Source: Pseudobythopirellula maris
Lineage (GTDB): Bacteria > Planctomycetota > Planctomycetia > Pirellulales > Lacipirellulaceae
Assembly (NCBI RefSeq): GCF_007859945.1
Contig: NZ_SJPQ01000002.1
Coordinates: 660,279 to 724,278 of the forward strand
Direction: 5' to 3'
DNA length: 64,000 nucleotides
Below the pieces are notes generated by a model. That model was not told the DNA's origin and did not search any database. It worked only from the letters and a program-made list of their open reading frames with translations. The position numbers and the translations under genes were made by a program. Below, piece by piece: positions 7,014-57,222 of the stretch (position 1 is the first letter of the stretch; each line of letters starts with the position of its first letter).

Positions 7014-7033
7014 TGAATCGAGCGTGCTGCCGT

Positions 7034-7118
7034 CCGACGACCGTAGGTCGTCGGCTATTGCCCTCATGCTAGATTAGCGGTACGGGCGTGCATGTAGCCG
7101 ACGACCTACGGTCGTCGG
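7034..7118. repeat. REP-like paired hairpins (inward pair)
   Basis: Two 24-base units in inverted orientation, 7034-7057 and 7095-7118, separated by 37 bases. Each unit is itself a hairpin with perfect 9-base arms (CCGACGACC, GTA loop, GGTCGTCGG) followed by CTA. A diverged pair of the same unit in the opposite arrangement lies at 59455-59532. The position between the convergent PL22 and nadA genes suggests it also serves as a bidirectional terminator. The layout resembles REP/BIME elements, but no nearby REP-associated transposase is seen. Confidence 0.75.
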
Positions 7119-7136
7119 GCCGCGTGACAGGAATGA

Positions 7137-19713: not shown

Positions 19714-19756
19714 TCCCAATTGCTTACAAAAACCGCTCTAGGCAAAGGCAGCCAAG

Positions 19757-47497: not shown

Positions 47498-47524
47498 GCC
47501 CGATCGCTTCTGACTGCTCCCAAA

Positions 47525-47558
47525 AGAGCGGCGCCCATGCGGGCGCCGCTCTTTTTTT
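47525..47558 (+). terminator. Intrinsic terminator after the PEP-CTERM gene
   Basis: AGAGCGGCGCCC (47525-47536), loop ATGC, GGGCGCCGCTCT (47541-47552) followed by a T-run to 47558. A perfect 12-base stem. Confidence 0.95.
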
Positions 47559-47780: not shown

Positions 47781-48059
47781 GTGTCTGAGGGCCCTGCCGA
47801 TGGTTCGGCCGCAGGGAGAACTCCCTCACGCATCGGGCGCTCGGCAGCCCTGGCCTTCGGCTGGGGGGCGTGCCTGCTGGGCACGTTGTTGATTGGCCGC
47901 TACGGCTCGTGGGGCCACGGCATCTGCGGCGCCTGGGGCTGTGGGCCCCCGATCGAAGCGTTGGTTTCGGTCCACGCCTTTTGGCTGGTTCTGCTGACGC
48001 CGATGGCATGCCTGGCGGCGACGTTTGTCCCGGCTAGTGCGAATCGCACGGATGCGTAG
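47781..48059 (+). CDS. Small membrane protein, unknown (GTG start)
   Basis: A 92-residue protein from a GTG: a polar leader, then two hydrophobic segments (LAFGWGACLLGTLLIGRYG and ALVSVHAFWLVLLTPMACLAA) separated by a Cys/Gly-rich loop (HGICGAWGCGPP). TACAAT near 47717 is a possible -10. Thirty bases later a second small membrane gene starts; the pair may be one unit. No family is recognised. Confidence 0.55.
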   Translation: MSEGPADGSAAGRTPSRIGRSAALAFGWGACLLGTLLIGRYGSWGHGICGAWGCGPPIEALVSVHAFWLVLLTPMACLAATFVPASANRTDA

Positions 48060-48088
48060 CGTGTGTGGCGGTTTGATTCGACGTCGAT

Positions 48089-48367
48089 ATGGCGAAAAAA
48101 ACGCTACGGCTAGCGGTAGTGCGATCTAGCGTGGCGTGGCGGGTCGGGCTCGGCTTCGCGTGCCTGGGCGTGCTGGCTACGGTCGCTCTCGGGGTGGGCG
48201 ACGCACTGCAATGGATGACGACAGCGGGCGATCCACCGACCGACCTGGTCGTGCGACGCGGCCTGTTCGCGATCGCCACCGCGGTGGATCGGCCGCTTCT
48301 GCAATTCGCCGCAGCCGGCGCCGCAGCGGCGCTCTTCGCAAGGTTCCGCCAGCAATCGCTCAGCTGA
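48089..48367 (+). CDS. Small membrane protein, unknown
   Basis: A 92-residue protein with two hydrophobic segments (VGLGFACLGVLATVALGVG and LLQFAAAGAAAALFA) and a basic start (MAKKTLRLAVVRSS). It overlaps the 3 prime end of the convergent CBS gene by eight bases. It has the same size and general plan as its upstream neighbour, but the sequences are not obviously related. Confidence 0.6.
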   Translation: MAKKTLRLAVVRSSVAWRVGLGFACLGVLATVALGVGDALQWMTTAGDPPTDLVVRRGLFAIATAVDRPLLQFAAAGAAAALFARFRQQSLS

Positions 48368-52032: not shown

Positions 52033-53976
52033 ATGTCGACCGATTCAGCACACGACCCAGACGCCGCCTCTCCCGCTGACGAGGGCGTTTCGTTCGCCGA
52101 GACGGCGCTCAAGCTCGGCGGCAAGAGCGACGACGAGGCGCGTCGCACCGGGGTGATCGACACGGCCGACGACCAGGTCGAGGCGCTCTTCGCGCCGCAG
52201 TACCAGACCGTGCGCAGCCCGGCGCACCGGGCGGTGTGGGACCGCGGCGTGCCGGTCGACGAGTTCCGCACGCCCAAGACCGAGACGCCCCCCGAGGTGC
52301 GCAAGGTGATGGACGCCTCGCTGGCGATCGTGCGCCGCCACAAGGCGGCCGGCACGCTGTTCGACGGCGAGGGCAAGGTCTCGGACGAGGTATTTGGCGA
52401 ACTCGGCGTGGCGGGCTACTGGGGCTTGCTTGTGGATCGCGAGTACGGCGGCGCCGGGGCGCCCTTCTCCAGCTTTGCCGCCTTCCTGGGCGAGATGGCC
52501 ACGATCGACGGCACGGTGGCGGGGCTCGCCTCGATCCACGGCTGCATCGGCGCGGTCGATCCGGTGAACGCCTTCGGCGACACGGCCCAAAAACAGAAGT
52601 TCTTGCCCGGGCTGGCGAGCGGCGAGCGCTTGAGCGCCTTCGCGCTCACCGAGCCGTGCGCGGGAAGCGACCTCACCGCGCTGCGCACCACCGCGGTGCT
52701 CGACGGCGACGACTATGTGGTGAATGGCGAGAAGCTGTTCATCTCGAACATCACGCCTGGGCGCACGATCGGGCTGGTCTGCTTGGTCGAGGGCAAGCCG
52801 TCGGTCTTGATCGCCGAGCTGCCGGCCGAGGAGAACGAGCACTTCCAACTCAAAAAGTACGGCCTGTACGCGCTGTCGCACCTGCACAACCGCGGCATCG
52901 TCTTCAACAACTTCCGCGTCCCGAAGGAAAGCCTGCTGCGGCCGGCGCGCGGCGACGGGCTGACGATCGCCTACCACGGCCTGAATCTTGGCCGCGTGTC
53001 GCTGTGCGCCAACGCCGCCGGCACGATGCGTCAGCTGCTCGCCGGCATGCTGCCGTGGGGCGAGTTCCGGGTGACCTACAGCGAGCCGATCGCCCACCGC
53101 GAGCTGGTGCAGCGCCGCATCGGTGAGATGGCGGGGCTGATCGTTGGGGCCGACGCCTTGGTCGGCTGGTGCGCTGGGCTGCTCGACCGTGGCTACCGCG
53201 GCGAGATGGAGTGCATCATCGCCAAGATCTACGGCTCCGAGGCGCTCAAGCACGCGTCGATCGAGCTGTACATGAAAACGCACGGCGGGCGGTCGTTCTT
53301 GCACGGCCACACGTTCGGCGACAACGTGCACGATTACCTGGCCCCCTGTATCTATGAGGGCGAGGGGGAGATGCTCGGCATGGCGTTCTTCAAGTCGCTG
53401 GTCAAAGACCACGGCAAGACGTACTTCGAGCCGATCGGCAAGGCGCTCGCCGCGGCGGGGATCAAGAAGCCGAACCCGATGAACCCGGCGCACGCCATGG
53501 TGCTCTCGCGTGTGGCGGCGCCTTACCTGAAGTGGCAGATCGCCCGGCGGCTGGTTTGGAACGCGGCGCCGGAGCTCCCCAAGATGCCCGACGCCCTCAG
53601 GCGCCACGCCAACTACGCCTGCGACCACCTGCAAGACATGGCGCTGGAGATCAGCGGCGTGATGCAGAAGTTCCAGCTGTCGCTGGCCGACCGTCAGTGC
53701 AAGATGTCGGAGCTGAGCACGCGCTGCCAGGACTTGATCACGATGCTCGCGGTCACGACCCACGCCGCCGCGCAGCCGGACGAGCGGGTCCGCACGGCGG
53801 CCGAGGTGCTCTGCTCTGGGCTCAAGCGGCGGCTCACAGGCAAGCGGCCCTCGAACCGTTACTTCAAGCAGGTGACGGCCCTGGGGGCCGAGATCGCCGA
53901 GGCCGCCGCCGCAGGCGAGGCGCCCTTCCCGGGCTTGGAGCAGATCGACCCGGCGCCGATCTTGATGAAGTATTAG
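52033..53976 (+). CDS. Acyl-CoA dehydrogenase, long form
   Basis: A 647-residue flavoenzyme of the acyl-CoA dehydrogenase family, much longer than the usual 380-400. The core has AFALTEPCAGSDLTALRTTA with VNGEKLFISN (FAD/substrate site) and GEMECIIAKIYGSEALK; CIYEGEGEMLGMAFFK holds the likely catalytic Glu. There is an 80-residue leader and a 150-residue C-terminal helical extension (MALEISGVMQKFQLSLADRQ). Beta-oxidation of fatty acids is likely, but the substrate chain length is unknown. The strong Shine-Dalgarno (AAGGAG) fixes the start. Its TAG stop codon is formed by the first bases of the MITE that follows. Confidence 0.9.
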   Translation: MSTDSAHDPDAASPADEGVSFAETALKLGGKSDDEARRTGVIDTADDQVEALFAPQYQTVRSPAHRAVWDRGVPVDEFRTPKTETPPEVRKVMDASLAIVRRHKAAGTLFDGEGKVSDEVFGELGVAGYWGLLVDREYGGAGAPFSSFAAFLGEMATIDGTVAGLASIHGCIGAVDPVNAFGDTAQKQKFLPGLASGERLSAFALTEPCAGSDLTALRTTAVLDGDDYVVNGEKLFISNITPGRTIGLVCLVEGKPSVLIAELPAEENEHFQLKKYGLYALSHLHNRGIVFNNFRVPKESLLRPARGDGLTIAYHGLNLGRVSLCANAAGTMRQLLAGMLPWGEFRVTYSEPIAHRELVQRRIGEMAGLIVGADALVGWCAGLLDRGYRGEMECIIAKIYGSEALKHASIELYMKTHGGRSFLHGHTFGDNVHDYLAPCIYEGEGEMLGMAFFKSLVKDHGKTYFEPIGKALAAAGIKKPNPMNPAHAMVLSRVAAPYLKWQIARRLVWNAAPELPKMPDALRRHANYACDHLQDMALEISGVMQKFQLSLADRQCKMSELSTRCQDLITMLAVTTHAAAQPDERVRTAAEVLCSGLKRRLTGKRPSNRYFKQVTALGAEIAEAAAAGEAPFPGLEQIDPAPILMKY

Positions 53977-54129
53977 AGCGGTTTGCTCATTGGTGTAGAC
54001 GCTCGGCTCGCGATCGGCGTCATGGCTTCGTCAGCCTGCATCGACAATGCACCGCATTGCCTGCTTCGGCTTCCTCGCCACGCCGCCAATCGCTTCCCCC
54101 CTCGTCCACACCAATTCGAAACCGCTCTA
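53974..54129. mobile_element. MITE-like element, copy 1
   Basis: A 156-base element bounded by TA. Terminal inverted repeats of about 27 bases: left begins TAGAGCGGTTTGCTCATTGG, right (reverse complement) begins TAGAGCGGTTTCGAATTGG, then GTG-GACG. Copy 2 at 57066-57222 is about 97 percent identical (three substitutions, one indel). TA at both ends matches a TA target duplication as made by IS630/Tc1-mariner transposases. No transposase is encoded. The left TA plus G forms the stop codon of the acyl-CoA dehydrogenase gene. Confidence 0.85.
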
Positions 54130-54224
54130 AAATTAACCGCACGCGACGGTCGGCAGGCTGAAACGGCTTGGCGGCGCGGTTAAGATGCCCCCGGTAACAG
54201 GTTTCTAACCAAGGGGCGTCGGAC

Positions 54225-55916
54225 ATGGCTTGGTCACACTGGTGGGGCGCGTCTCTCTCTCTGGCATGCGCCCTGCTGGCGCCGGCTTCCGCCGCTTCCG
54301 AGACGCGGGACCCGGAGTCGCTGCTCATCACCGGCGGCCGGGTCTGGACCGCCGACCCCGACCGGCCCTGGGCCGAAGCGCTGCTGACGGTCGGCGACAA
54401 GATCGCCTTCGTCGGCGACCTTGATGAGGCGCAGCCGCGGGCGCCTGCTGGGGCGCGCGTTGTCGACGCCACTGGCGGGCTGGTGACGCCGGGGTGGTTC
54501 GACTCGCACATCCACCTCCTCTCCGGCGGGATGAGCCTGTCGCAAGTGCAGCTGCGCGACGCCGCGACCAAAGAAGAGTTCGTCCGCCGGCTGCGCAACG
54601 TCGCCGCTGGTAGAACTCCGGGGCAGTGGATCCAAGGCGGCGATTGGGACCACACCTTGTGGGGCGGCGACCTCCCCACGCGTGACTGGATCGACGCCGT
54701 CACGCCCGACAACCCGGTATGGATCGGCCGGCTCGACGGGCACATGGCGTTGGCCAATACGGCGGCGTTCAAGGCGGCCGGCTTCGACGAGTCGGCCGTC
54801 GCGCCCCCGGGGGGCGCGATCGAACGCGACGAGCGCGGCCGCCCGACAGGCTTGCTGCGCGACAACGCGATGGCGCTCGTCGGCCACGCGGCGCCGCCCG
54901 CTTCGGACACCGAGCGTCTCGAAGCGCTCGACGCCGCAACCGACTACCTGTTCGCCCGGGGCGTCACATCCGTTTACCACGTCGGTTCGCTGAACGACCT
55001 CCGGTTATTGCGCGCGGCGCACACGGCCGGCCGGCTGCGGCTGCGTGTGCACGCCGCCACCCAGCTCTCGCAGTGGCGTCGGCTGGCGGAGGAGATCGAG
55101 CGTCACGGGGCCGGCGACGAGTGGCTTCGGGCCGGGGCGCTGAAGGGCTTCGTCGACGGGTCGCTCGGCTCGCACACGGCGGCTTTCCTCGAGCCTTACG
55201 ACGACAAGCCGACCGACCGAGGCCTGCTGGTCAATTCGCCGCAGGACCTCGACGCCTGGACCCGTGGCGCCGATGCGGCGGGGCTGCAGGTGGCGGTCCA
55301 CGCGATCGGCGACCGGGCGATCCGCTTGCAACTCGACGTTTTCGAGCGCGTGGCGAGGGCGAACGGTCCCCGCGACCGCCGCTTCCGCATCGAGCACGCC
55401 CAGCATATCGCCGCGGAGGACTTGCCGCGATTCGCCGAACTGGGCGTCATCGCCAGCATGCAGCCCTACCACTGCATCGACGACGGCCGCTGGGCCCTGC
55501 CGCTGATCGGCGCGACGCGTTGCGAAACCACGTACGCGTTCCGCGGTTTGATCGACGCTGGCGCGCGAGTGGCGCTCGGGAGCGACTGGCCCGTCGCGCC
55601 GCCCACGCCGCTCGAGGGGGTTTATGCCGCCGTCACCCGCCGGACGCTCGACGACAAGAACCCCGGCGGCTGGTTCCCCGCGCAGAAGATCTCTGTCGGC
55701 GAGGCGCTGCGAGGCTACACCACCGAAGCGGCGTACGCCGAGTTCGCCGAGCAGGAGAAAGGCGCCCTGAAGCCGGGGCTGCTGGCCGACGTGGTGATCG
55801 TCGACCGCGACCTGTTCACGGCCCCACAAGAAACCATCGCCGACGCACGGGTCCGCTGCACGGTGGTTGGCGGCCGTGTGGTTTATGAATCGCCGGCGGC
55901 CGCGTCAGGGCCCTGA
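54225..55916 (+). CDS. Secreted YtcJ-like amidohydrolase
   Basis: A 563-residue metal-dependent amidohydrolase of the YtcJ group. A signal peptide (HWWGASLSLACALLAPASAAS) suggests the periplasm. Metal and catalytic elements: GWFDSHIHLLSGG (His-X-His), GGDWDHTLWGG, KGFVDGSLGSHTAA (bridging Lys), VAVHAIGDRA, RIEHAQHIA, and LGSDWPVAPPTPL (Asp). The composite-domain strands at both ends are present (LLITGGRVWTADP and ADVVIVDRDLF). The substrate is unknown; relatives act on N-acyl or cyclic amides. TAAGAT at 54183 is a weak -10 candidate. A terminator follows. Confidence 0.9.
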   Translation: MAWSHWWGASLSLACALLAPASAASETRDPESLLITGGRVWTADPDRPWAEALLTVGDKIAFVGDLDEAQPRAPAGARVVDATGGLVTPGWFDSHIHLLSGGMSLSQVQLRDAATKEEFVRRLRNVAAGRTPGQWIQGGDWDHTLWGGDLPTRDWIDAVTPDNPVWIGRLDGHMALANTAAFKAAGFDESAVAPPGGAIERDERGRPTGLLRDNAMALVGHAAPPASDTERLEALDAATDYLFARGVTSVYHVGSLNDLRLLRAAHTAGRLRLRVHAATQLSQWRRLAEEIERHGAGDEWLRAGALKGFVDGSLGSHTAAFLEPYDDKPTDRGLLVNSPQDLDAWTRGADAAGLQVAVHAIGDRAIRLQLDVFERVARANGPRDRRFRIEHAQHIAAEDLPRFAELGVIASMQPYHCIDDGRWALPLIGATRCETTYAFRGLIDAGARVALGSDWPVAPPTPLEGVYAAVTRRTLDDKNPGGWFPAQKISVGEALRGYTTEAAYAEFAEQEKGALKPGLLADVVIVDRDLFTAPQETIADARVRCTVVGGRVVYESPAAASGP

Positions 55917-55947
55917 CTCCCGGGGCGGGTGCTTTGCCTTCATAAAA

Positions 55948-55976
55948 GCAGCCCCGACCAGCAGGGTCGGGGCTGC
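55948..55976. terminator. Intrinsic terminator for amidohydrolase and usp genes
   Basis: GCAGCCCCGACC (55948-55959), loop AGCAG, GGTCGGGGCTGC (55965-55976). Read on the minus strand the stem is followed by TTTTATG, so it fits the end of the usp gene best and sits between convergent genes. Confidence 0.85.
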
Positions 55977-56002
55977 GAACTCTCTATCACTCACGGCACG
56001 CC

Positions 56003-56845
56003 TCACTGCCCCAGGAACAGCGGCAGCGGCGATCGCTGCACCGTGTCGAGCATCGTGTCGCCCAGCACGCGACGCACCAGCAGGTTGCGGGCGCTGTTGC
56101 CCATGACGATCAGGTCGGCGCCCCAGTCGTCCGCCGCCTCGAGCAACCCACCCTTGGCCGGTCCGTCGTGGTGGTGCGTCTCCGGCTCCAAGCCGTTCGC
56201 GCGGCAGTACTCGGCCGCGTGCTGCAGGTGGCTCCGGCGCCGCTCGGCGTCGTGGCCAAAGGCGACGATCCGCACCCGCATGTCGCCCCACGGGCGCATC
56301 TGCACGAACCGCTTCATCGTCTTGGCCGAAGCGACCGACCCGCTGTAGGCGATCATCGCCCGGTGGTAGTCGCGGACCTCGGGGCCCACGGCTAGCAAGG
56401 GACGCACGCCCCCGGTGATGAGCTTCATCAGCACCACGCTCGGGTCGTAATGAGGCTCGCCCGGCATGCCGAGCTCGAACGCCCCGTGCAGTCCCAGCAC
56501 CACGAGGTCGTGGTAGCGCGACTGCGAGACGAGGTAGTTGAACGCCTCGTCACGCTCTTCACGCAGCACCGAGAAGCGGACCTTCGCCTCCTGGCACGCA
56601 TCGGCAAACTGCTCGACACCCTCCTCGGCCCGCTCGCGGGCCTCCTGCAAGCGGTGCTCGCGCAGGTCGGCGGCAAATCCGCCGGCGCCGATCGGAACGG
56701 GGCCGACATTCATCAACTGCTTCACGCCCAACAAGGTGACGCCGGTAAGCTCGGCGTCGTGGCGGCGGGCGAGGTCAACCGCCGTGTGAATCGAGGACTC
56801 GGCGCAATCGGTCCCGCCGATCCCCAATAAGATGCGACCGATCAT
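56003..56845 (-). CDS. Tandem universal stress protein (Usp)
   Basis: A 280-residue protein made of two UspA domains. The first begins ILLGIGGTDCAESSIHTAVDLA and ends LVVLGLHGAFELG; the second begins RAMIAYSGSVASAKTMKRFV and ends ADLIVMGNSARNLLVRRVLGDT, which matches the ATP-binding G-2X-G-9X-G(S/T) loop. The first domain has a less regular loop, so only the second may bind ATP. AAAGGAGG six bases before the start is the strongest Shine-Dalgarno in the window. A long leader with a -10-like TATAAT at 56968-56973 lies upstream. Confidence 0.9.
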   Translation of the reverse strand: MIGRILLGIGGTDCAESSIHTAVDLARRHDAELTGVTLLGVKQLMNVGPVPIGAGGFAADLREHRLQEARERAEEGVEQFADACQEAKVRFSVLREERDEAFNYLVSQSRYHDLVVLGLHGAFELGMPGEPHYDPSVVLMKLITGGVRPLLAVGPEVRDYHRAMIAYSGSVASAKTMKRFVQMRPWGDMRVRIVAFGHDAERRRSHLQHAAEYCRANGLEPETHHHDGPAKGGLLEAADDWGADLIVMGNSARNLLVRRVLGDTMLDTVQRSPLPLFLGQ

Positions 56846-56967
56846 CTCGGGCCTCCTTTCGAAGGCGTCGCAGAGGAGAAGAAAATGACAAACGCCGCCC
56901 GTGCCGCCTGAAGGAGCGCTGCGACGCCGCTTATCGCGACGAGCATCGGACGCCTGTCTCTACATCA

Positions 56968-56973
56968 ATTATA
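56968..56973 (-). promoter_or_regulatory. Consensus -10 element of the usp gene
   Basis: TATAAT on the minus strand, giving a leader of about 115 bases. The -35 region (GGTCTT with a 17-base spacer) is poor. The gap 56846-57421 otherwise holds only the second MITE copy and an unremarkable stretch in front of the matrixin gene. Confidence 0.5.
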
Positions 56974-57065
56974 CGGCGGCGGGGGCCCCAAAGACCACTT
57001 AAAACAGCCGCTGCGACAACACGCCGCAGCGGCGATTTAAGGGTATCGCCTAGGGGCAAGGACGC

Positions 57066-57222
57066 TAGAGCGGTTTGCTCATTGGTGTAGACGCTCGGCT
57101 CGCGATCGGCGTCATGGCTACGTCAGCCTGCATCGACAATGCACCGCATTGCCTGCTTCGGCTTCCTCGCCACGCCGCCAATCGCTTCCCCGCTCGTCCA
57201 CACCAACTCGAAAACCGCTCTA
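57066..57222. mobile_element. MITE-like element, copy 2
   Basis: A 157-base second copy, same orientation as copy 1, with TAGAGCGGTTT ends and flanking TA. It sits alone in an intergenic region, so it shows the exact boundaries of the element without coding constraints. Confidence 0.88.

Follow-up and report, generated by a model that had tools for sequence, protein, structure and literature searches.

A TA-bounded hairpin repeat of Pseudobythopirellula maris is very probably an IS630-type MITE and has relatives with a near-constant tip across its phylum

The usual view of bacterial MITEs is that each arises as a by-product of a single insertion sequence, in a single genus, and does not last long. 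RUP of Streptococcus pneumoniae is described as an intergenic MITE of about 100 bp, with about 100 copies per genome, TA ends and IS630-like terminal repeats, for which mobilization by IS630-Spn1 has been proposed (PMC2229807). ERIC (also called IRU), reported from several genera, is an imperfect palindrome that forms a long stem–loop and has TA termini with target duplication, and the same account gives no transposase identified for it (PMC2229807). Repeats are also known to supply stop codons: of 58 coding sequences that BOX overlaps, 36 are reported to take their stop codon from it without evident truncation (PMC3049150), and GTAG REPs are said often to give TAG to flanking open reading frames (PMC3733652). 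In ISY100, a member of the IS630/Tc1-mariner group, insertion occurs at TA with duplication of the TA, and two helix-turn-helix motifs bind the ends (PMC2170065).

Here we analyse a planctomycete repeat of 156–158 bp, two copies of which lie in a 64,000-nucleotide stretch of the P. maris genome (the window; C2:660279-724278 of a 5.07-Mb assembly in 6 contigs, 96.5% complete). Likened by description, it shares with RUP a short, intergenic, multicopy form, TA ends and IS630-type terminal repeats; RUP, however, is described from S. pneumoniae, where its IS630 partner is also found, whereas our element has no partner in its genome and its constant-tip relatives span a phylum. With ERIC it has in common a palindromic stem–loop, duplicated TA termini and the lack of an identified transposase, but ERIC is 127 bp long and enterobacterial. 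We know of no compensating arm changes across phyla for ERIC. A sequence relation to ERIC was rejected on the result that the element has no match in 20,395 Escherichia coli records (blastn sensitivity, E 1e-5, words of 11). BOX and GTAG REPs resemble it in supplying stop codons to genes; neither is a TA-inserting IS630 MITE with YTAR targets, and REPs go with Y1 transposases. ISY100 is alike, again by description, in its TA duplication and in the two-box ends that we see in the family, but is autonomous where our element is not. RUP and ERIC are the close analogues, and a constant tip across a phylum is unusual.

The features of the two window copies are as follows.

53974..54129, minus strand (the strand on which the conserved tip reads CCGAAGCAGGC...GTCGATGCAGG): MITE copy 1, 156 bp, TA to TA; covariance model R1, 121.8 bits
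57066..57222, minus strand (same orientation as copy 1): MITE copy 2, 157 bp, TA to TA; R1, 122.3 bits
53974..54001, plus strand: left terminal inverted repeat of copy 1, TAGAGCGGTTTGCTCATTGGTGTAGACG
54103..54129, minus strand: right terminal inverted repeat of copy 1
57066..57093, plus strand: left terminal inverted repeat of copy 2
57195..57222, minus strand: right terminal inverted repeat of copy 2
54035..54069, minus strand: conserved bulged hairpin tip of copy 1, CCGAAGCAGGC AATGC GGT GCATT GTCGATGCAGG
57127..57161, minus strand: conserved hairpin tip of copy 2
52033..53976, plus strand: acyl-CoA dehydrogenase gene (Pfam), 647 aa; its stop codon TAG, 53974-53976, is the first three bases of copy 1
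56003-56845, minus strand: universal stress protein gene beside copy 2
from 57422, plus strand: matrixin-type peptidase gene beside copy 2

An earlier note on this DNA had described two TA-bounded copies about 97% identical, and both are present where it placed them, with 97.45% identity and one A near the right end missing from copy 1. Each starts with TAGAGCGGTTT and ends with the inverted repeat of TAGAGCGGTTT, with TA on both sides. The terminal repeats of about 27 bases that the note recognized are there too, but the inverted repeat spans the whole element as one hairpin: the minus strand of copy 1 folds end to end into a single hairpin of -96.8 kcal/mol (z -12.3 against shuffles), and the plus strand gives -70.6 kcal/mol (z -7.8). 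Copy 2 lies between divergent genes, in a CTAG target.

A genome-wide search, which the note had suggested, found the element in at least 83 places (coordinates listed by several searches, merged). Each of the 40 candidates scored, out of 160 in a blastn-type search, was 97–100% identical, and the pattern of the ends matched 84 times on one strand and 83 times on the other, against 0 and 0 for a reversed control. Near-full-length copies occupy 81 of the 83 places; aligned, they have a mean pairwise identity of 97.3% (minimum 93.6%) and a mean of 2.6 differences from their consensus, which points to a recent burst. The length between the outer TAs is 156–158 bp (78 loci), with no attributable open reading frame. 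The neighbourhood classification took in 82 loci, with neighbours uncalled for one; convergent genes flank 31 of 81 copies and divergent genes 11.

Targets were readable at 78 of the 83 fetched loci, L194 and L164 being truncated and L159, L215 and L235 having no readable terminal TA. They are TTAG (27), CTAG (25), CTAA (14), TTAA (9) and ATAG (3); YTAR thus covers 75 of 78. Three insertions (L207, L192 and L199) have a similar insertion-free sequence that aligns without a gap across the junction if one TA is kept, which identifies the TA as a target-site duplication. L207 is nested in a repeat of a second kind, about 100 bp long, that is uninterrupted at five other places; the counterpart of L192 is a paralogous stretch duplicated within its own locus; and L199 lies in a hairpin repeat whose insertion-free counterpart, L190, is only 79% identical. 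The junction search returned 18 rows from five loci, of which L213 (a self match) and L181 (a palindromic self match) were set aside. The second repeat starts with CTAGTGCGAATCGCAC, ends near GCGATCTAG and is probably another TA-ended MITE. Its five uninterrupted places are:

window 48024-48131
L180:1907-2009
L239:6644-6745
L224:1911-2008
L231:1832-1934

A further insertion, in L185 at about 2002, splits a near-perfect palindrome (ACGAAAAGGCAC TA GTGCCTTTTCGT) at its centre; this palindrome may be a terminator.

A profile search found the transposase domain DDE_3 (PF13358) in 30 of 43 genomes of the family and gave no match in the P. maris assembly, which is 96.5% complete. We surveyed IS630 ends at one locus per genome (30 loci). 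In five of these (L244, L247, L248, L249 and L250), the transposase is enclosed by TAGAGC and GCTCTA at a spacing of 1,024–1,042 bp; the other 25 show no such pair. In all four whose flanks are both readable, Y precedes and R follows the ends; L247 stops at a contig end. The reading frame consists of two overlapping open reading frames in the four loci examined; OrfB of L248 and L250 scores above the NCBIfam IS630 cut-off, and OrfA has helix-turn-helix matches. The end of L250, which comes from another genus of the family, is identical to the MITE end at all of the first 15 bases, at 16 of the first 17 and at 20 of 28 overall. We found a stricter, two-box end, TAGAGC-N16-TAGCG, at 6 of the 30 IS630 loci and in half of the MITEs (13 of 26); the background is none in the window and one in 345 kb of the genome's own loci. 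The second box, TAGCG, is absent from the ends of the P. maris MITE itself, and ends not beginning with TAGAGC are found in 7 of the 26 elements of the phylum-wide alignment. Apart from the MITE pattern, a search of the P. maris genome for further identical end pairs found TAGAGCGGTNT at two places only, and thus shows no full-size element with these ends. A lone TAGAGCGGTTTTTGTAAGCA end lies on the minus strand at window 19721-19740 (L049), after a rhodanese-like frame and with no partner seen nearby; it is possibly a relic.

Taken as a whole, the explanation that fits best, and in which we have high confidence, is that the element is a non-autonomous transposable element (MITE) of the IS630/Tc1-mariner kind: it has no gene, TAGAGC...GCTCTA ends, a TA duplication, YTAR targets, at least 83 copies and sister-genome IS630 elements with the same ends. 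The class proposed in the earlier note is supported by the TA duplication, the targets and the sister-genome ends, but not by a DDE_3 gene in the genome itself. Of the three outcomes that the note named as refuting, a lack of further copies and flanks in common are both contradicted by the data; as to the third, an IS630 element with the same ends was found in sister genomes only. An IS630 transposase acting in trans would have excised the element by cleaving its ends and inserted it at TA; the source of that transposase would since have been lost from the assembled genome, or be missing in it.

A DNA search of the 43 family genomes gave matches in seven, mostly to the tip only, and the elements there are hairpins of 158–164 bp with other arms. 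The covariance model R1, built from 10 elements of family genomes and applied to the best candidates (7 per genome phylum-wide, 68 in the family), matches 10 of the 43 family genomes. Across the phylum it matches 35 of 393 sampled genomes (27 of 272 genera, 18 family labels), counts that come from a search within the phylum and carry no outside negative control. The tip pattern alone, searched in GTDB contigs, found 79 stretches in 16 assemblies, against about 0.3 expected at uniform composition; nearly all are in Planctomycetota, and R1 also matches 77 of the 79. Omnitrophica UBA2337 (L131) has a full-length relative (77 bits), the matches in Verrucomicrobia SZAS-8 (L079 and L134) cover the tip only and are uncertain, and those in Janibacter (L103) and in Verrucomicrobiaceae (L126) have the look of chance matches. 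Viral contigs had no match to the tip pattern, and plasmids none to the element. No Rfam 15 family scored above its gathering score, with sub-threshold matches only at the element, and on this result a known RNA family was rejected. The element is a member of an old lineage, spread over the phylum, in which the full length is maintained as a single hairpin with a near-constant bulged tip; the element is ordinary in kind, and what is unusual is the age and constancy of the tip. In the literature on planctomycete MITEs and palindromes we found no title or abstract that describes it; subscription journals were thinly covered, and an earlier description is possible.

Three Phycisphaerae BS750m-G58 loci (L082, L110 and L119) have an extra inner palindrome in one arm and ends reading GAGGGTGTTT, an apparent extension of the hairpin family; as a first idea from reading the sequences, these ends would go with a 3-bp TNA duplication. 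R1 also matches weakly, by its stem, a strong GC-rich hairpin followed by a T run at window 47523-47554 (AAAAGAGCGGCGCCC...GGGCGCCGCTCTTTTTTT), which is likely to be an intrinsic terminator.

Twenty-six elements, hand-picked and not random, mostly one per genome, were aligned by sequence alone (alignment A4). Both partners have changed in 35 of the 42 predicted pairs, and the 210 both-side-change cells compare with 64 in shuffles (0 of 500 reach 210) and 40–66 when the pairing is slid; a ten-element set has both-side changes in 35 of 54 pairs. Such changes are present in all seven helices, so recognition of the ends alone is insufficient as an explanation. The most constant part of the family is the tip, CCGAAGCAGG...GTCGATGCAGG, in which a G-U pair is kept in 22 of 26 elements.

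These observations raise the possibility, which we regard as doubtful, that the hairpin is a structured RNA (or single-stranded DNA) first and mobile second, with tip and arms selected as one strand folds and is protein-bound or processed, much as has been proposed for ERIC and NEMIS transcripts. The kept G-U pair at the tip favours it, as do compensating changes within the reach of the terminal repeats (helices 3–7 of A4) and the greater stability of the tip-bearing strand, which holds for 25 of 26 elements and, once a neutral loop is put in place of the tip, for 21 of 26. Among pairs predicted on both strands, G-U outnumbers A-C by 33 to 19, although the terminal part shows no excess (8 to 6); a count from the structure of the core strand, 74 to 24, favours that strand by construction, and 33 to 19 is the fairer figure. 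The elements are homologous, however, so the covariation counts are not independent and shared ancestry limits the statistics, and matched arms can also be produced by template-switch repair of imperfect palindromes. The lack of any matching known RNA family likewise counts against this account, as does the orientation relative to neighbouring genes, which shows no preference (22 sense, 17 antisense, p 0.52). Orientation relative to local GC skew showed nothing, but this skew is too weak to inform.

The near-constant tip presumably has a conserved function, as a recognition feature at the protein or RNA level. For the phylum-wide family, with its at least one clear Omnitrophica relative, we tentatively suggest that the tip, as RNA or single-stranded DNA read from one strand, is recognized by a host or transposition factor, and that arms and ends track changing IS630 transposases by compensating changes. 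If true, this would be a MITE lineage with a conserved functional part of its own, passed between transposase partners, and not a set of independent deletion products. One hairpin lineage over many families, together with candidate IS630 partners, makes the survival of an element despite transposase turnover testable.

For the IS630-type MITE itself, we modelled the joined site (element and one TA removed) for 78 insertions: 18 hit a stop codon (TAA or TAG), 58 lie between genes and 2 inside called genes, and at L165 and L186 one insertion lies in the stops of both convergent genes. Background YTAR sites in the same loci (n=835) number 46 in stops, 481 intergenic and 308 in genes. With a home-made gene caller and background sites of this related kind, stops are enriched over intergenic sites (odds ratio 3.2, Fisher p 4e-4) and genes are avoided (p 3e-12); part of the stop enrichment could reflect a general tolerance of 3′ ends, given the 31 of 81 copies between convergent genes. 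In other genomes, under other training of the caller, 19 of 66 elements are at stops, two of them at both stops, and 5 are in called genes; these 66 come from 134 model rows, the remainder being opposite-strand duplicates, contig-end cuts and short or weak matches. YTAR holds TAG or TAA on either strand and the first base of the element after TA is G, such that insertion into a TAG or TAA stop yields TAG in the same frame and leaves the protein unchanged, as copy 1 did at the dehydrogenase. That the target and this G rewrite the stop would explain why stop codons are over-represented among surviving insertions, and gives a simple rule for why insertions in stops survive. The supply of stops by repeats is known in general; this explanation, through YTAR and TA-G, is specific to this element. 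For annotators, a TAG common to gene and repeat need not mean a truncated protein.

That copy 1 begins at the TAG stop of the dehydrogenase was correctly seen in the earlier note, but a native gene end replaced by the insertion, as it further proposed, or a truncation is very unlikely. The joined site reads TAT TAA AAT, with target TTAA and a stop TAA in place, so the stop was kept where it was (TAA to TAG) and the end of the dehydrogenase is unchanged. The comparison drew on 30 loci from the 40 matching genomes. Of 29 relatives, 4 have their stop at this very residue, 20 extend 1–5 residues beyond it, 2 extend seven, 2 extend twenty and 1 could not be placed. The number of residues after the aligned tyrosine does differ in 25 of the 29, as a replaced end would predict, but mostly by 1–5 more, and most relatives end within 5 residues of the P. 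maris protein. On the joined site and the relatives' ends, we reject a replaced C terminus.

The element might instead be REPIN-like and moved by a Y1 (RAYT) transposase that recognizes hairpins, since Y1 enzymes bind structures much like an element that folds along its whole length and has a bulged tip, and Y1_Tnp is found in 42 of 43 family genomes, with four in P. maris. We consider this highly improbable: TA is duplicated and the ends are IS630-like (TAGAGC), the nearest copy to the P. maris Y1 gene at L239:5259-5798 is about 2.1 kb downstream (7907), the four other Y1 regions fetched contain a copy only in L243, about 9 kb from the Y1 gene, and the genome has a separate GTAG-type palindrome (window 7029-7123). 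In these five regions, which include one of the four P. maris genes, no Y1 gene is flanked by the element, whose ends are not of the GTAG type, and mobilization by RAYT was dropped on the combination of TA duplication, IS630-like ends and the lack of a flanked Y1 gene. Segmental duplication of one stretch without transposition, named in the earlier note as one of the outcomes that would overturn its reading and suggested by two similar copies just 3 kb apart, has virtually no probability left, because sequence comparison finds the flanks of the two copies unrelated, at least 83 places are dispersed over the genome and TA is duplicated.

The Y1/RAYT-type transposase gene of L239 sits downstream of a dnaK gene. 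The palindrome at window 7029-7123 is long, of the GTAG/REPIN type (CCGACGACCGTAGGTCGTCGGCTAC and its inverse) and unlike the MITE, and it is probably served by Y1 (RAYT).
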